From Pirellulaceae bacterium (GTDB lineage: Bacteria; Planctomycetota; Planctomycetia; Pirellulales; Pirellulaceae), in NCBI GenBank assembly GCA_026004795.1, contig BPJV01000002.1:496001-560000 (forward strand): 64,000 nt of DNA. Reading direction: 5' to 3'. Below, piece after piece: positions 39-61,386 of the stretch; the stretch's first letter is position 1; each line of letters opens with the position of its first letter. The notes under the pieces were generated by a model, which searched no databases, was not told the origin of the DNA, and saw only the letters and a list, made by a program, of their open reading frames with translations. Made by a program: the position numbers and the translations under genes.

Positions 39-1544
39 TTGAAGTCTGCTTCGCCGCCGAGGCACGGCTTCCTGTCACCCTCGCCAACCGCCCCATCGTC
101 AGCCCCCAGCCGTTCACCGACCGTCCCTGCTCCCATCGCGAAGAAGTTGTCGTCCGCATCGGAAAACGGCATCGCACCGTCGTTCGCGGACGGTTCGCCA
201 ATCGCTTCACCCCATGCTACCGATGCTGCTGAACATGCCCATTCCCATAGCCATGATCGGGCGCAGACCGGTGTGGAGCGGCTCGCGCAACGCAGGCAGA
301 TCTTGACGGCAGAGCCATCATCCGCAAAAGACAGACAAACCGAGGGCAATGAAAAAGCTGGCAAAAACAGGAAAGACAAACAAAGAACAACCGGCGTGGA
401 AGTTGGTAGGTCCACTTCCGGAGCGGGCAGCGATTGTGAGCCAACGGTACCAAGAGGTATAACTACAGGCGGTTCAGGAGTGGAGACCGGCTTCGCTCCA
501 TCAAGTTCTTCGCCGCCTGCAGCGACCGAATCGGTTTTAGTCGTGAGTGAGTGCAATCAACTCGCCTGGTCGACCGCCAAGCTAGTGCTGGGAGAACCGG
601 GACGCTACAGTCCGGTACTCTTCTTCGGTCCCAGCGGCTGCGGAAAATCGCTGTTGATGGCCACGGTAGCATCACAGCTTCGGCGGCGTTGTGGGATGCG
701 ACGTGTGCAGGTGGTGACCAGCGAACAATTTACCAATGATTTCACCAGCGGGTTGTGTGGGCGACAGTTGCCGATGTTTCGCGACAAGTACCGTGGCGTC
801 GATGCCCTGCTGGTCGAAGATGTGCAATTCTTGATGGGCAAGCGTAGTACGCTCAACGAATTCCGGTACACCATCGACAATCTGGTGCGTCGTGGAAAAC
901 AGGTCGTATTGACCGCGGATCGTCCTTTATCCGAGTTGCACGGTCTGGGCAAGCAGCTGGTGGGGCGTCTGCAAGCCGGATTGACTGCCCCTCTATTGCC
1001 GCTCGATGAATCGGCGCGGCGGCGAGCGCTGCAGCACATGCTCGACGGTAGCCAGGTTCGGCTACCAGCAGACATCGTGGAACAATTGGCGGCTCGTGCC
1101 TCCGGAGACGGTCGCGTGCTCAGCGGCATTGCCAAACGGTTGATCGCCCACGCACGACTTTCCACTCAACCTTTGACCTGGGAGGCGTGTTGGGAAGCGG
1201 TGGCGGATCTGGTGCATGCGGTGCAACCGGTGGTTAAGATCAAGGATATCGAACGGGCGGTATGCTCGGTTTTTGGACTGGAACCGGGCAGTTTGCAGTC
1301 GCAGAGCAAGACGCGCCGCGTTAGCCAACCACGAATGATCGCCATGTTCCTGGCCAGAAAGTACACCCCGGCAGCTTACAAAGAGATCGGTCAGTACTTC
1401 GGCAAACGTCGACACAGTACGGTGATCGCGGCCCAGCGTTCCGTGGAACAATGGTTGCAAGAGAATGCCCCGCTGGAATGCGCGGGCGGGTTGCCGGTGC
1501 GCGAGTTGCTGAGGCATACCGAAGCGCATCTGCAGGTGAGTTGA
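39..1544 (+). CDS. dnaA: Chromosomal replication initiator DnaA (5' part frameshifted as written)
   Basis: DnaA binds origin DnaA boxes and opens the duplex with its AAA+ ATPase. Visible parts are a Walker A GPSGCGKS (residues 197-204), a Walker B LLVEDVQF with E260-D261, and a C-terminal DNA-binding domain IV with GKRRHSTV (about 455-462). The frame is opened by a TTG at 39, but residues 1-165 are only a Ser/Pro/His-rich linker with no domain I. The +2 frame from base 2 onward reads VTRAVEAWRGHRIEVCFAAEA, which resembles the end of DnaA domain I, and runs to a stop near 229-231. Removing one C from the C5 run at 103-107 joins that frame to this one. I infer that the true start lies upstream of the window. 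The next gene starts 5 bp downstream. The AAA+ and domain IV identification is firm; the N-terminus is not. Confidence 0.9.
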   Translation: MKSASPPRHGFLSPSPTAPSSAPSRSPTVPAPIAKKLSSASENGIAPSFADGSPIASPHATDAAEHAHSHSHDRAQTGVERLAQRRQILTAEPSSAKDRQTEGNEKAGKNRKDKQRTTGVEVGRSTSGAGSDCEPTVPRGITTGGSGVETGFAPSSSSPPAATESVLVVSECNQLAWSTAKLVLGEPGRYSPVLFFGPSGCGKSLLMATVASQLRRRCGMRRVQVVTSEQFTNDFTSGLCGRQLPMFRDKYRGVDALLVEDVQFLMGKRSTLNEFRYTIDNLVRRGKQVVLTADRPLSELHGLGKQLVGRLQAGLTAPLLPLDESARRRALQHMLDGSQVRLPADIVEQLAARASGDGRVLSGIAKRLIAHARLSTQPLTWEACWEAVADLVHAVQPVVKIKDIERAVCSVFGLEPGSLQSQSKTRRVSQPRMIAMFLARKYTPAAYKEIGQYFGKRRHSTVIAAQRSVEQWLQENAPLECAGGLPVRELLRHTEAHLQVS

Positions 1545-13602: not shown

Positions 13603-14391
13603 GTGCCAATTTTGCGAATTGGAATCGGAACGGGTAATCTGCAGCAACCGCTCAAAAAAGCATTGCACACGGCGGCGAAGGTGGGCGCTCAAGGAATAGA
13701 GATCGACGCCAGAAACGTCTTGCGGCCCAGTGAACTTAGCGAAACGGGCCGTCGCCAACTAAGAAAGATGCTGGATGATCTGAATTTGCAGGTTGCAGCG
13801 GTTCGCTTCAACACCCGGCGGGGTTATGACGTTGCCGACGATCTGGATCGCCGCATGGAAGCCACCCGAGAGGCCCTGCGTTTCGCCTACAGCTTGGGCG
13901 CCTCGACGGTGATCAACTCGATCGGTCGCGTGGATGAAGATCTCGATGCCCCCACCAACCAGCAGTTGATCGCCTGTCTGGAAGATATCGCCCGCTGGGG
14001 CCAGCACATCGGCGCAATGTTGGCTTGCGAAACGGGCAATGAGCCAGTCGACCGCCTGGCACAGTTGCTCGATCGCCTGCGGTATCAAACCATCGGCGTC
14101 GCTTTCAATCCGGGGAACTTGATCATCAACGGTTGGTACGACAGCACTTCGATTGAGGTCGTCGGGCCACGCGTGCTGACGGTCATCGCGCGGGATGCGG
14201 TGCGTGATTTGGCACGTGGCCGCGGTTTGGAGGTGCCGTTAGGCGATGGGACGGCCGATTTTCCCCACATCCTCGCAACGCTGGAGCAGTTCGACTATCG
14301 GGGCTGGATAATCGCCGATCGCCAACGATCGGACGACCTGGAGTATGACTTGAGCAATGCGGTAAAGTACCTACGAGCCATCCAGCAATAA
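13603..14391 (+). CDS. Sugar phosphate isomerase/epimerase-like protein (xylose isomerase-like TIM barrel)
   Basis: The product begins LRIGIGTGNLQQPLKKALHTAAKVGAQGIEIDARN, has AYSLGASTVINSIGRVDED in the middle, GVAFNPGNLIINGWYDS, and ends LEQFDYRGWIIADRQRSDD. This is the pattern of AP-endonuclease-2/xylose-isomerase-like barrels that isomerise or epimerise sugars. I chose the GTG at 13603, which has GGAG about 8 bases upstream and gives 262 residues. A longer reading from 13396 is possible but would run through the divergent gene. The start codons of the two divergent genes are separated by one base, so each promoter should lie inside the other gene. Substrate unknown. Confidence 0.8.
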   Translation: MPILRIGIGTGNLQQPLKKALHTAAKVGAQGIEIDARNVLRPSELSETGRRQLRKMLDDLNLQVAAVRFNTRRGYDVADDLDRRMEATREALRFAYSLGASTVINSIGRVDEDLDAPTNQQLIACLEDIARWGQHIGAMLACETGNEPVDRLAQLLDRLRYQTIGVAFNPGNLIINGWYDSTSIEVVGPRVLTVIARDAVRDLARGRGLEVPLGDGTADFPHILATLEQFDYRGWIIADRQRSDDLEYDLSNAVKYLRAIQQ

Positions 14392-58113: not shown

Positions 58114-59442
58114 ATGCCAAAGATTCAAGCCTTTCGTGGCCTACGATACAACCTCGCACGCGTGGGGTCACTCAGTGATGTAGTCGCTCCCCCCTACGAC
58201 GTGATCGACGGAGCGTTGCAGCAACGGTTGTATCAGGCTAGCCCGTACAATTTCGTCCGACTGGAACTGACAAAACCAGAGCCGGGTGATGAAGACCCCG
58301 AGGCAGTCTACAAACGAGCAGCTAGTTTGTACCGGCAATGGATTCGCGAAGGCGTGTTGCAGCACGAGCCGGACCCGGCGCTCTACGTCTACCACCAAAT
58401 CTTTGACTACGCCGGAACGACCTACACGCGGCGCGGATTCATGTGCCGTGTGAAACTCGTGCGTTTTGGCGAAGGCAACATCTACCCGCACGAGCAGACG
58501 CACGCCAAGGCCAAAGACGACCGCTTGCGCCTGACGCGAGCGTGCCAAGCGAATATGAGCCAGATCTACGGTTTGTATCCCGATCCTGAGAACGCCGCGC
58601 AGAATCTGTTGGAGGCTCATATCGCCGGTTCCGCAGCGTTGGAGGCGGTCGATCACCTGGGAGTCACCCATCGCCTGTGGCCGGTGACGGACCAGCAGAT
58701 TATCAGCCAGGTGGCCACGTTGCTGGATGACAAGCCGATGTTTGTCGCCGATGGGCACCACCGCTACGAAACGGCCTGCAATTACCGCGATGAACTGGCC
58801 GAGGCGGCCGGTGGCGTGCTCCCCGAGGATCATCCCGCCAACTATGTGCTGACGATGGTCATGAGCATGGACGATCCGGGGTTGATTGTCTTACCCACCC
58901 ACCGCTTGTTCCATGGCGTCGAGGCGCTGGACGCCACGCAGCTCCGCGCACGCCTGGAACCGCTGCTTGATTGTCAGCCGGCCGGAGAAGTACCGGAAGC
59001 GGCGCACCAGGTTTGGCAGCAGATCGAACAGCTCAACGATCAAGGTGCGTTCGGACTGTATACCGCCAAGGATCGCCAGTGGACTTTGGTGACGGCCAAT
59101 GCGAAAACGGCTGAGGCGATGGAGCGCCTGGCGCAGCAGCAGAGCGAGGATTGGCGAAGCCTGGGGGTGGCCATGCTGCATCGGTTGATCATCGACGAAC
59201 TGCTGGGCATGGAGGGGCATCCCAAACCAACGTATGTGCATCTGGTCGATGAAGTGGTAGCCGGATTGAAGGGGGAATTGGAGGGTGGGCACACCTATCC
59301 GCTCGCCGCCTTGGTGATGCCGGCGACGGTCGACGATATCCGTCGTGTCAGCCTGCATAAGGAACGCATGCCTGCCAAGAGCACCTACTTCTACCCCAAG
59401 CTCCTCTCCGGCCTGGTCGTGAATCCGCTGGACGGCAACTAA
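58114..59442 (+). CDS. DUF1015 family protein
   Basis: The 442-residue protein is typical of DUF1015: MPKIQAFRGLRYNLA, VVAPPYDVIDGALQ, YVYHQIFDYAGTTYTRRGFMCRVKL, HEQTHAKAKDDRLRLTRACQANMSQIYGLY and MFVADGHHRYETACNYRDEL. The family is widespread and uncharacterised, so no reaction is assigned. The start at 58114 (ATG) matches the family; a GTG-type reading from 58030 adds a leader. The three parS-like palindromes begin 18 bp after its stop. Confidence 0.92.
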   Translation: MPKIQAFRGLRYNLARVGSLSDVVAPPYDVIDGALQQRLYQASPYNFVRLELTKPEPGDEDPEAVYKRAASLYRQWIREGVLQHEPDPALYVYHQIFDYAGTTYTRRGFMCRVKLVRFGEGNIYPHEQTHAKAKDDRLRLTRACQANMSQIYGLYPDPENAAQNLLEAHIAGSAALEAVDHLGVTHRLWPVTDQQIISQVATLLDDKPMFVADGHHRYETACNYRDELAEAAGGVLPEDHPANYVLTMVMSMDDPGLIVLPTHRLFHGVEALDATQLRARLEPLLDCQPAGEVPEAAHQVWQQIEQLNDQGAFGLYTAKDRQWTLVTANAKTAEAMERLAQQQSEDWRSLGVAMLHRLIIDELLGMEGHPKPTYVHLVDEVVAGLKGELEGGHTYPLAALVMPATVDDIRRVSLHKERMPAKSTYFYPKLLSGLVVNPLDGN

Positions 59443-59460
59443 CACCGTCCACTGCCCACT

Positions 59461-59476
59461 CGTTTCACGTGTAACA
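59461..59476. promoter_or_regulatory. parS-like site 1
   Basis: CGTTTCACGTGTAACA matches the ParB-binding parS consensus TGTTTCACGTGAAACA at 14 of 16 bases. It is the first of three sites spaced 33 bp apart. Confidence 0.65.
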
Positions 59477-59493
59477 CTTGATTTCACCGGTAC

Positions 59494-59509
59494 GGTTTCA
59501 CGTGGAACC
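59494..59509. promoter_or_regulatory. parS-like site 2
   Basis: GGTTTCACGTGGAACC matches the parS consensus at 13 of 16 bases and is palindromic except at one paired position. It starts exactly 33 bp after site 1. Confidence 0.6.
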
Positions 59510-59526
59510 GCTTCCGTGATCGCTAC

Positions 59527-59542
59527 CGTTTCACGTGCAACG
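59527..59542. promoter_or_regulatory. parS-like site 3
   Basis: CGTTTCACGTGCAACG matches the parS consensus at 13 of 16 bases and is palindromic except at one paired position. It starts exactly 33 bp after site 2. Confidence 0.6.
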
Positions 59543-59592
59543 CCTGGTAGTGGAGCTTGCCCATCGTGGCCGGCTGGTCACCAACCGAGGAA

Positions 59593-59871: not shown

Positions 59872-61386
59872 CTAATGAGTGCCATGCTCGATGAGGTGGG
59901 TCAGGCGGTCGTAGGCTGCGTCCCATGCTGGATCCGGTTGAGGCGCGTAGGTAGTGATGTCGGGAGAATTGCGGATCAGTGTCCGTGCGGCGTGAACCGA
60001 TTCCAGATCCCCTAAACCGATCGCCTGCATGGCGACATTTCCCATGGCGGTGGCTTCCACCGGACCCGCGATTACGGGACGTTGGCACGCATCGGCCGCA
60101 AACTGACAAAGCATACGATTGCGCGAGCCACCACCGACCAGGTGAATGGTGTTCAGTGAATTGCCAACCAACAGTTCCAGACGCTCCAGGGTAAATCGAT
60201 ACCGCAAGGCCAGGCTTTCCAGCGCACACCGGATCATGGCTCCTTCGTCCAGCGGCGCTGGCTGACCACTTCGTTGGCAATAGTCGCGAATCGCCTGAGG
60301 CATGTTGGACGGAGCGACAAAGGAGCCGTCGTCAGGATCGATGATGGCGGTCAGACGAGGCGCTTCTTCGGCCAGGGCAATCAGTTGTTCCCAGCTATAC
60401 TCTTTGCCTTCCCGTTTCCATTGTTCGCGACATTGTTGGACAATCCACAACCCGGAGATGTTTTTCAACAGCCGTACGCTGCCACCGACGCCCCCTTCGT
60501 TCGTAAAGTTAAACTCGAGGCATGGTGCGGTGAGTACTGGGGACGCCAGCTCCGCCCCCATCAGAGACCACGTCCCGCAACTGATGTAACACCAATCGGG
60601 CGACTGGGCGGCAAAGTCGGCGGCCGGGACAGCCAATACTGCCGAGGCCGTGTCGTGGGTGGCGGGCAGCACGATCGCTACCTCTGGCGACAGGCCGGTT
60701 CGCTCCTGCACGAACGGCAATGGGTTGCCCAAAACTTTCCCCGGCTGCTCCGGTTCCGAAAAAATATGTTCGGGCAGACCGAATGCTCGGATAACCTGTT
60801 TGCTCCAACGGCAGTTGATGGGATTGAGCAGTTGGGTGGTCGACGCATTGGTAAACTCATTGACCTTCTCACCGCTCAGCAGCCAATGAAAATAATCGGG
60901 TACCATCAACAACCTTTCGGCGATATCCAGCAGTGCGGATCCTTCGCGACGCATGGCCAACAATTGAAACGCCGTGTTGATCTGTAGGAATTGAATTCCT
61001 GTCTCGGCGAATATCTGCTCTCGGGGCATCAACTCGAAGGCGTAGTCGAGGATATCGTTGAGACGGGGATCACGGTAGCAGTAAGAAGGGCCCACCGGAT
61101 CGTCATTTCCATCGAGCAAGACGTAATCCACTCCCCAAGTGTCTACGCCAAGGCTGCGGATCGAATCGCCATAACGTTGGGCGGCGAGGGTCAGACCGTG
61201 CAGTAGGTGCTCCCACTGTCCCAACAGATTCCACAACAACCGCTTGCCATGGGGAACGGCACCATTGGGGAAGCGGTGTACCTCGTCGAGTTCGATTCCC
61301 TGTTGGCCTATGGTGGCGGCCAGCACACGACCGCTGGAGGCGCCCAGATCGACCGCTAGATATACCGGAGCGGATGACGTTGTCAT
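59872..61386 (-). CDS. rhaB: Rhamnulokinase (FGGY family)
   Basis: Rhamnulokinase phosphorylates L-rhamnulose to rhamnulose 1-phosphate. The 504-residue protein has the FGGY pattern of RhaB: VYLAVDLGASSGRVLAATI at the start, SLGVDTWGVDYVLLD, GPSYCYRDPRLNDI, LLMVPDYFHWLLSG, FTNASTTQLL, VLPATHDTASAVLAVPA, YISCGTWSLMGAEL and the late IHLVGGGSRNRMLCQFAADA. The length is normal and the frame is intact. ATG at 61386. No rhaA or rhaD is present here, so other rhamnose genes must be elsewhere. It fits use of rhamnose-containing sulfated polysaccharides together with the sulfatases. Confidence 0.95.
   Translation of the reverse strand: MTTSSAPVYLAVDLGASSGRVLAATIGQQGIELDEVHRFPNGAVPHGKRLLWNLLGQWEHLLHGLTLAAQRYGDSIRSLGVDTWGVDYVLLDGNDDPVGPSYCYRDPRLNDILDYAFELMPREQIFAETGIQFLQINTAFQLLAMRREGSALLDIAERLLMVPDYFHWLLSGEKVNEFTNASTTQLLNPINCRWSKQVIRAFGLPEHIFSEPEQPGKVLGNPLPFVQERTGLSPEVAIVLPATHDTASAVLAVPAADFAAQSPDWCYISCGTWSLMGAELASPVLTAPCLEFNFTNEGGVGGSVRLLKNISGLWIVQQCREQWKREGKEYSWEQLIALAEEAPRLTAIIDPDDGSFVAPSNMPQAIRDYCQRSGQPAPLDEGAMIRCALESLALRYRFTLERLELLVGNSLNTIHLVGGGSRNRMLCQFAADACQRPVIAGPVEATAMGNVAMQAIGLGDLESVHAARTLIRNSPDITTYAPQPDPAWDAAYDRLTHLIEHGTH

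Follow-up and report, generated by a model that had tools for sequence, protein, structure and literature searches.

Three parS-like palindromes between two convergent genes

The window, meaning the whole 64,000-nt stretch of DNA that was analyzed, contains a 429-bp gap between the convergent ends, at 59442 and 59872, of a DUF1015 gene (PF06245; 58114..59442, + strand; Pfam E 1.9e-90) and a rhamnulokinase-like FGGY kinase gene (59872..61386, − strand). The latter carries the Pfam domains FGGY_N and FGGY_C, scores 471.8 bits with TIGR02627, below the cut-off of 527.95, and is probably not part of the system described here. Within the gap we observed three 16-bp palindromes, all read on the + strand, that resemble canonical parS (TGTTTCACGTGAAACA, 16 bp): CGTTTCACGTGTAACA at 59461..59476, which matches at 14 of 16 bases (two mismatches) and is the best match of the whole assembly, and GGTTTCACGTGGAACC at 59494..59509 and CGTTTCACGTGCAACG at 59527..59542, which match at 13 of 16 (three mismatches each). 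An identical stretch, GTTTCACGTG, is present in all three sites, and one half is imperfect in each. A first-pass annotation of the window had listed these sites with the same match counts, an exact 33-bp spacing and a gene-free position, and all of this was reproduced.

The 33-bp period, which separates both pairs of neighboring sites exactly, is a feature of this array but is not common to its relatives, where the spacings are mostly 36–37, 50–51 or 76–77 bp (34 spacings) and where six sister genomes (G001, G005, G007, G008, G009 and G010) show a spacing of 42 bp. The 17-bp spacers are no clear repeats of one another, being identical at just 5–8 of 17 positions, and a tandem duplication as the source of the 33-bp unit found no support. 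Helical phasing of the spacings was likewise not supported (R 0.20–0.32 over the 34 spacings, a borderline value from spacings that are not independent).

The array is enclosed by a 9-bp imperfect inverted repeat spanning 59448–59554 (TCCACTGCC / GGTAGTGGA), which raises the question of an element acting at the RNA level, in which the transcribed array would fold as a hairpin with the 9-bp repeat as its outer stem. The predicted fold of 118 nt has an energy of −44.5 kcal/mol (z −3.88), and none of 200 shuffles was as good; repeated palindromes, however, fold by construction, and no Rfam model matched at its gathering threshold, so that we hold an RNA element to be extremely improbable.

No second parS-like cluster in the assembly

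We scanned for canonical parS with up to three mismatches, both in the window and in the whole assembly (5.59 Mb in 17 contigs, 96.82% complete). The window contains three such matches against a mean of 0.17 in 100 shuffles, none of which reached three or more. Genome-wide, ten palindromic places were found vs 15 for the reversed control pattern, which means that isolated three-mismatch matches are background; the seven places outside the array are all single, two of them lying 1.75 kb apart on contig C2 and the others on separate contigs, whereas the single two-mismatch place of the assembly is in the array. The exact motif GTTTCACGTGNAAC occurs three times, each time in the array, and its reversed control once. 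By the shuffle, whole-assembly and exact-motif counts together, the array is the only parS cluster of the 5.59-Mb assembly and lies far beyond chance expectation; the whole-genome scan that the first-pass annotation had proposed returned one cluster.

Related sites mostly lie beside parB and DUF1015 genes

For comparison we used 60 genomes, comprising the window's own genome and 59 relatives. GTTTCACGTGNAAC was present in 35 of the 60, at two or more places in 28 of these 35, while its reversed control was found in 15 genomes, mostly once, so that a match standing by itself is weak evidence. The sites are no more than 5 kb from the best parB hit in 29 of the 35 motif-bearing genomes, and less than 2 kb from it in 27 of those 29. 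The six remaining genomes have parB on another contig (five) or have no parB hit (one), and of these six, four are members of the window's genus, the window genome among them. DUF1015 proved to be a frequent neighbor of parS: we retrieved site loci, with up to 1.5 kb on each side, from 30 of the 35 genomes, and in 23 of the 29 loci from relatives a DUF1015 relative (51–83% identity) lies beside the sites, within about 1.5 kb. At one locus (L041, G020:C1:4572156) a parS-like site falls inside a stretch 37% identical to the DUF1015 protein, and five of the 29 loci have no DUF1015 relative in reach, two of these being short contig ends.

This linkage bears on whether the palindromes could instead be the operator of another palindrome-binding regulator, controlling the DUF1015 gene or the kinase gene. 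Tandem palindromes can indeed be operators, but these sites lie between the 3′ ends of two convergent genes, where a search for sigma-70-type promoters found no match, and the motif accompanies parB within 5 kb in most of the genomes that carry it, which together make an operator very unlikely.

A single ParB retains parS-type residues

A profile search of the assembly found one ParB_N match, on a contig other than that of the array. The corresponding parB gene (G000:C7:217936-218970) lies just downstream of parA in a parA-parB operon (G000:C7:217188-218970) on contig C7, which is assumed to be chromosomal, and at least 269 kb separate it from the array. The first-pass annotation had named a missing parB gene as evidence against its reading; one ParB is encoded, with ParB_N, HTH_ParB and ParB_C domains and next to a ParA partner. 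The protein scores 176.8 bits with TIGR00180 (cut-off 58.45) and 220.8 bits with the Noc model, below the cut-off of 315.

To read individual residues we aligned 30 ParB sequences, taken from 30 fetched loci out of the 58 genomes with a parB hit, and compared positions with those of Caulobacter ParB (6t1f). A passage of PMC7383237 reports that R173 and G201 distinguish ParB from Noc, which has Q and R at these positions, and that the contact residues G170-K171-S172 are conserved between the two. The counterparts of Caulobacter R173 and G201 are R199 and G227 here, and Arg and Gly are kept in 30 of 30 aligned ParBs, none of which shows the Noc signature of Gln and Arg. The GKS contact residues are replaced by KID, with K in 26, I in 28 and D in all 30 of the aligned sequences, and the third contact residue, D, is also found in the ParBs of genomes with perfect parS sites. 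The motifs GERR and EN-x-QRKDL, which we take to be the CTPase motifs, are present in 30 of 30.

These features separate the system from the Noc/NBS systems of Firmicutes. The likeness is a ParB-like fold and, in some sister sites, TTTCCC halves such as those carried by NBS sites; unlike Noc, the ParB studied here is of ParB type where Caulobacter has R173 and G201, and it is accompanied by a gene for ParA.

The array as a predicted chromosomal centromere

Judged from sequence, this planctomycete very probably has its chromosomal parS centromere in the array. That it is a ParB-loading parS, the centromere-like role which the first-pass annotation had suggested, is strongly supported by its uniqueness in the assembly, by the presence of one ParB with parS-type residues, and by the comparable clusters that most relatives with the motif carry next to parAB. 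Counting against it are the one imperfect half of every site, the separation of parAB from the array, which sets this genome apart from most relatives with the motif, and the KID contact residues. It resembles the chromosomal ParABS systems of Caulobacter, Bacillus and Pseudomonas in being a small cluster of 16-bp TGTTTCACGTGAAACA-like palindromes served by one ParB with ParB_N, HTH and C-terminal domains from a parA-parB operon; it differs from them in that the half-sites deviate, with the cores deviating too in sister species, in that parAB is not beside parS, and in that there is no linkage to dnaA-dnaN. By the known ParABS pathway, the single ParB would bind the three palindromes as dimers, be loaded there as a CTP-dependent clamp and then slide onto the flanking DNA; the resulting ParB-DNA complex would be moved by ParA, giving segregation, and would probably load SMC.

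Site cores vary and parAB mostly lies away from them in the window's genus

Within the genus the exact motif is mostly absent, being found in four of 15 genomes, the window genome included. We based the argument for sister sites on their position after DUF1015, reading the 600 bp that follow this gene in 13 sister loci (G003, without a DUF1015 match, was left out). At up to three mismatches, 12 sites were found after DUF1015 in six genomes (G001, G002, G008, G009, G011 and G014), and at up to four mismatches 15 sites in nine sister genomes, while control DNA before the 600-bp stretch of the same loci yielded 0 sites in 32,781 bp at either three or four mismatches. No site was found after DUF1015 at up to four mismatches in G007, G010, G012 and G013, where the G010 locus ends at a contig edge; G007 and G010 have a site pair at another place. 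Counts of a degenerate pattern, GTTYCMYRKGRAAC, are weak by themselves (29 places vs 15 for the control in the 15 genus genomes, and 17 vs 11 in 14 others).

The CACGTG core is kept in one of the 12 sister sites at up to three mismatches, and in one of the 15 at up to four; other sister cores are CACATG or CATGTG, CCCATG, CATATG, CACGCG and CGCATG. The ParB recognition helix KIDRSTIANLMRLLELP is identical in all 13 genus ParBs aligned. Variable cores combined with an identical helix indicate that the sites of the genus drift while the helix that would read them stays as it is. In 10 of the 11 genus genomes with both elements located, parAB is not beside the sites: a distance of 43.6 kb separates the two in G009, and nine genomes, many of them fragmented assemblies, have them on different contigs. 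The exception is G003, with parAB 1.3 kb from the sites.

Such patterns could also arise if the array were a decaying relic, in which parAB moved away within the genus, the array degenerates without function, and ParB uses other sites. The location of parAB on another contig, the imperfect half-sites, the near-complete loss of CACGTG among the 15 sister sites and the parS-parB distance in G009 would all fit. Against this, three sites with an identical GTTTCACGTG persist in a non-coding gap, palindromes after the same gene in sister genomes far exceed the zero of the control, six genomes share a 42-bp pair, and no better match to the consensus exists anywhere else in the assembly. We accordingly consider a relic unlikely and retain the reading as a parS centromere.

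The dnaA gene in the window does not mark the origin

The first-pass annotation had taken a dnaA gene about 58 kb to the left of the array as a sign of placement near the replication origin. The gene is there (39..1544, + strand, with Bac_DnaA and Bac_DnaA_C domains), but it is a DnaA paralogue that does not lie beside dnaN. The assembly has one further dnaA match, and two or more DnaA-domain matches occur in 56 of the 60 genomes. The second, shorter dnaA (G000:C9:171815-172939, or L260 11815-12939, − strand) adjoins the sole dnaN of the assembly (L260 10073-11740, − strand) on contig C9. All 11 genomes tested have dnaN and the shorter dnaA no more than ~2 kb apart, a pair that in G052 is inferred to span the start of the record. 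Of the 239.7 kb of C9, 100 kb were read in four-kb bins: all 13 bins up to 172 kb, the position of dnaA-dnaN, have a negative GC skew, and eight of the 12 bins beyond it have a positive one. No DnaA-box clusters were found in C2, the window or the 100-kb stretch of C9, so that origin placement rests on the dnaA-dnaN linkage and the skew. The dnaA of the window does not mark the replication origin, and the inference of origin-proximal placement drawn from it is not supported, as the dnaA-dnaN pair and the skew turn are on C9, at least 286 kb from parS.

Contig C2 lacks dnaN, and its cumulative skew has a minimum near 700 kb that is compatible with a turn there, with a local turn near the array. 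Over the ~34 kb left of the parS region (window positions 14001–48000) the GC skew is strongly negative, about −0.06 to −0.19, and from 48 to 64 kb it is near zero or positive, with a few bins slightly negative.

In eight single-contig relatives we took the longer, best-scoring dnaA, by score and length, as the presumed counterpart of the window gene. It lies 1.9–4.3 Mb from dnaN, or 0.53–0.99 of the half chromosome, and thus tends to lie toward the terminus half. Two further searches for landmarks were uninformative: a dif-like pattern gave control counts above pattern counts in nine of nine genomes (strands summed), and 16S rRNA genes had mixed orientation relative to replication direction, with no match in four of 10 genomes, including G000 and G009.

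parS-type sites lie far from dnaA-dnaN in single-contig relatives

For the window genome the distance from parS to dnaN is bounded only from below, at 286 kb or more, and its parS could be fairly origin-proximal if C2 and C9 are adjacent in a favorable order. Taking dnaN as the origin, parS-type sites lie 0.83–4.02 Mb away in eight of eight single-contig relatives, which corresponds to 0.25–0.87 of the half chromosome, and parB alone lies at 0.25–1.00 of the half chromosome; for neither is any of the eight within 0.2 (four of the eight chromosome lengths were rounded in this calculation). The exact motif is present at the locus only in G020, G033, G052 and G059, with variant sites in G009, G025, G041 and G042. 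The G041 sites (G041:C1 / L074, apparently Planctomycetales bacterium 10988), which carry GTTTCACGGGAAAC or GTTTCCCGTGGAAC, are doubtful, the best parB hit being 2.2 Mb away.

Of the eight, G009, G020 and G033 were sampled for skew. The result is clear in G009, which belongs to the window's genus and consists of a single 8.44-Mb contig: over 40 windows of 20 kb, GC and AT skew agree with an origin at coordinate 0, the site of dnaA-dnaN, and with a terminus at 4.1–4.3 Mb, a fit that no permutation out of 2000 equaled; its parS, at 2.903 Mb, is 69% of the way to the terminus. The 20 windows of G020 (7.25 Mb) are supportive, with a best GC-skew origin at 6.7–7.0 Mb (p 0.007; for AT skew, p 0.067), more than 2 Mb from parS. 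The skew of G033 fits best at 0 but is not significant (permutation p 0.67) and is too weak to test the origin. The ParABS locus of single-contig relatives is 0.8–4 Mb from dnaA-dnaN, so that parS is probably not part of the DNA that these species replicate first.

Discussion

As a sequence the probable parS array is ordinary; what is unusual is the false origin cue beside it and the distance of ParABS from dnaA-dnaN in relatives. Published passages describe parS as usually near the origin (PMC7333895) and, in P. aeruginosa, as having to sit in a ~650-kb zone around oriC that extends about 200 kb in one direction and 450 kb in the other (PMC5098823). For Caulobacter, a passage of PMC5815017 reports that an additional parS is tolerated best close to ori, disfavored mid-arm and accepted in a limited zone elsewhere, and that distance to the native parS, not to ori, seems decisive. 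The ParB passage of PMC5352709 concerns a plasmid. By title and abstract start, we found no paper on chromosomal parS in planctomycetes in the open-licence literature, and priority is not established.

We give even chances to a broader picture in which the Pirellulales ParABS centromere is untied from the origin by 0.8–4 Mb, with either ParABS acting late and the origins being separated by other means, or the nucleoid being organized by the parS region instead of oriC, and in which the window's genus has uncoupled parAB and lets the core drift under an unchanged helix. If true, this would be a bacterial order with native parS megabases from the origin, including a chromosome whose origin is clear from skew (G009), and would provide a natural setting in which to ask whether parS has to be near the origin and what other process separates origins; the window's genus, for its part, provides variant parS sites read against a constant ParB recognition helix. 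Elsewhere in the same order, G044 (locus L026 and others) carries 18 forward motif matches that are spread across many contigs rather than clustered, and 17 of these are perfect 14-bp palindromes.
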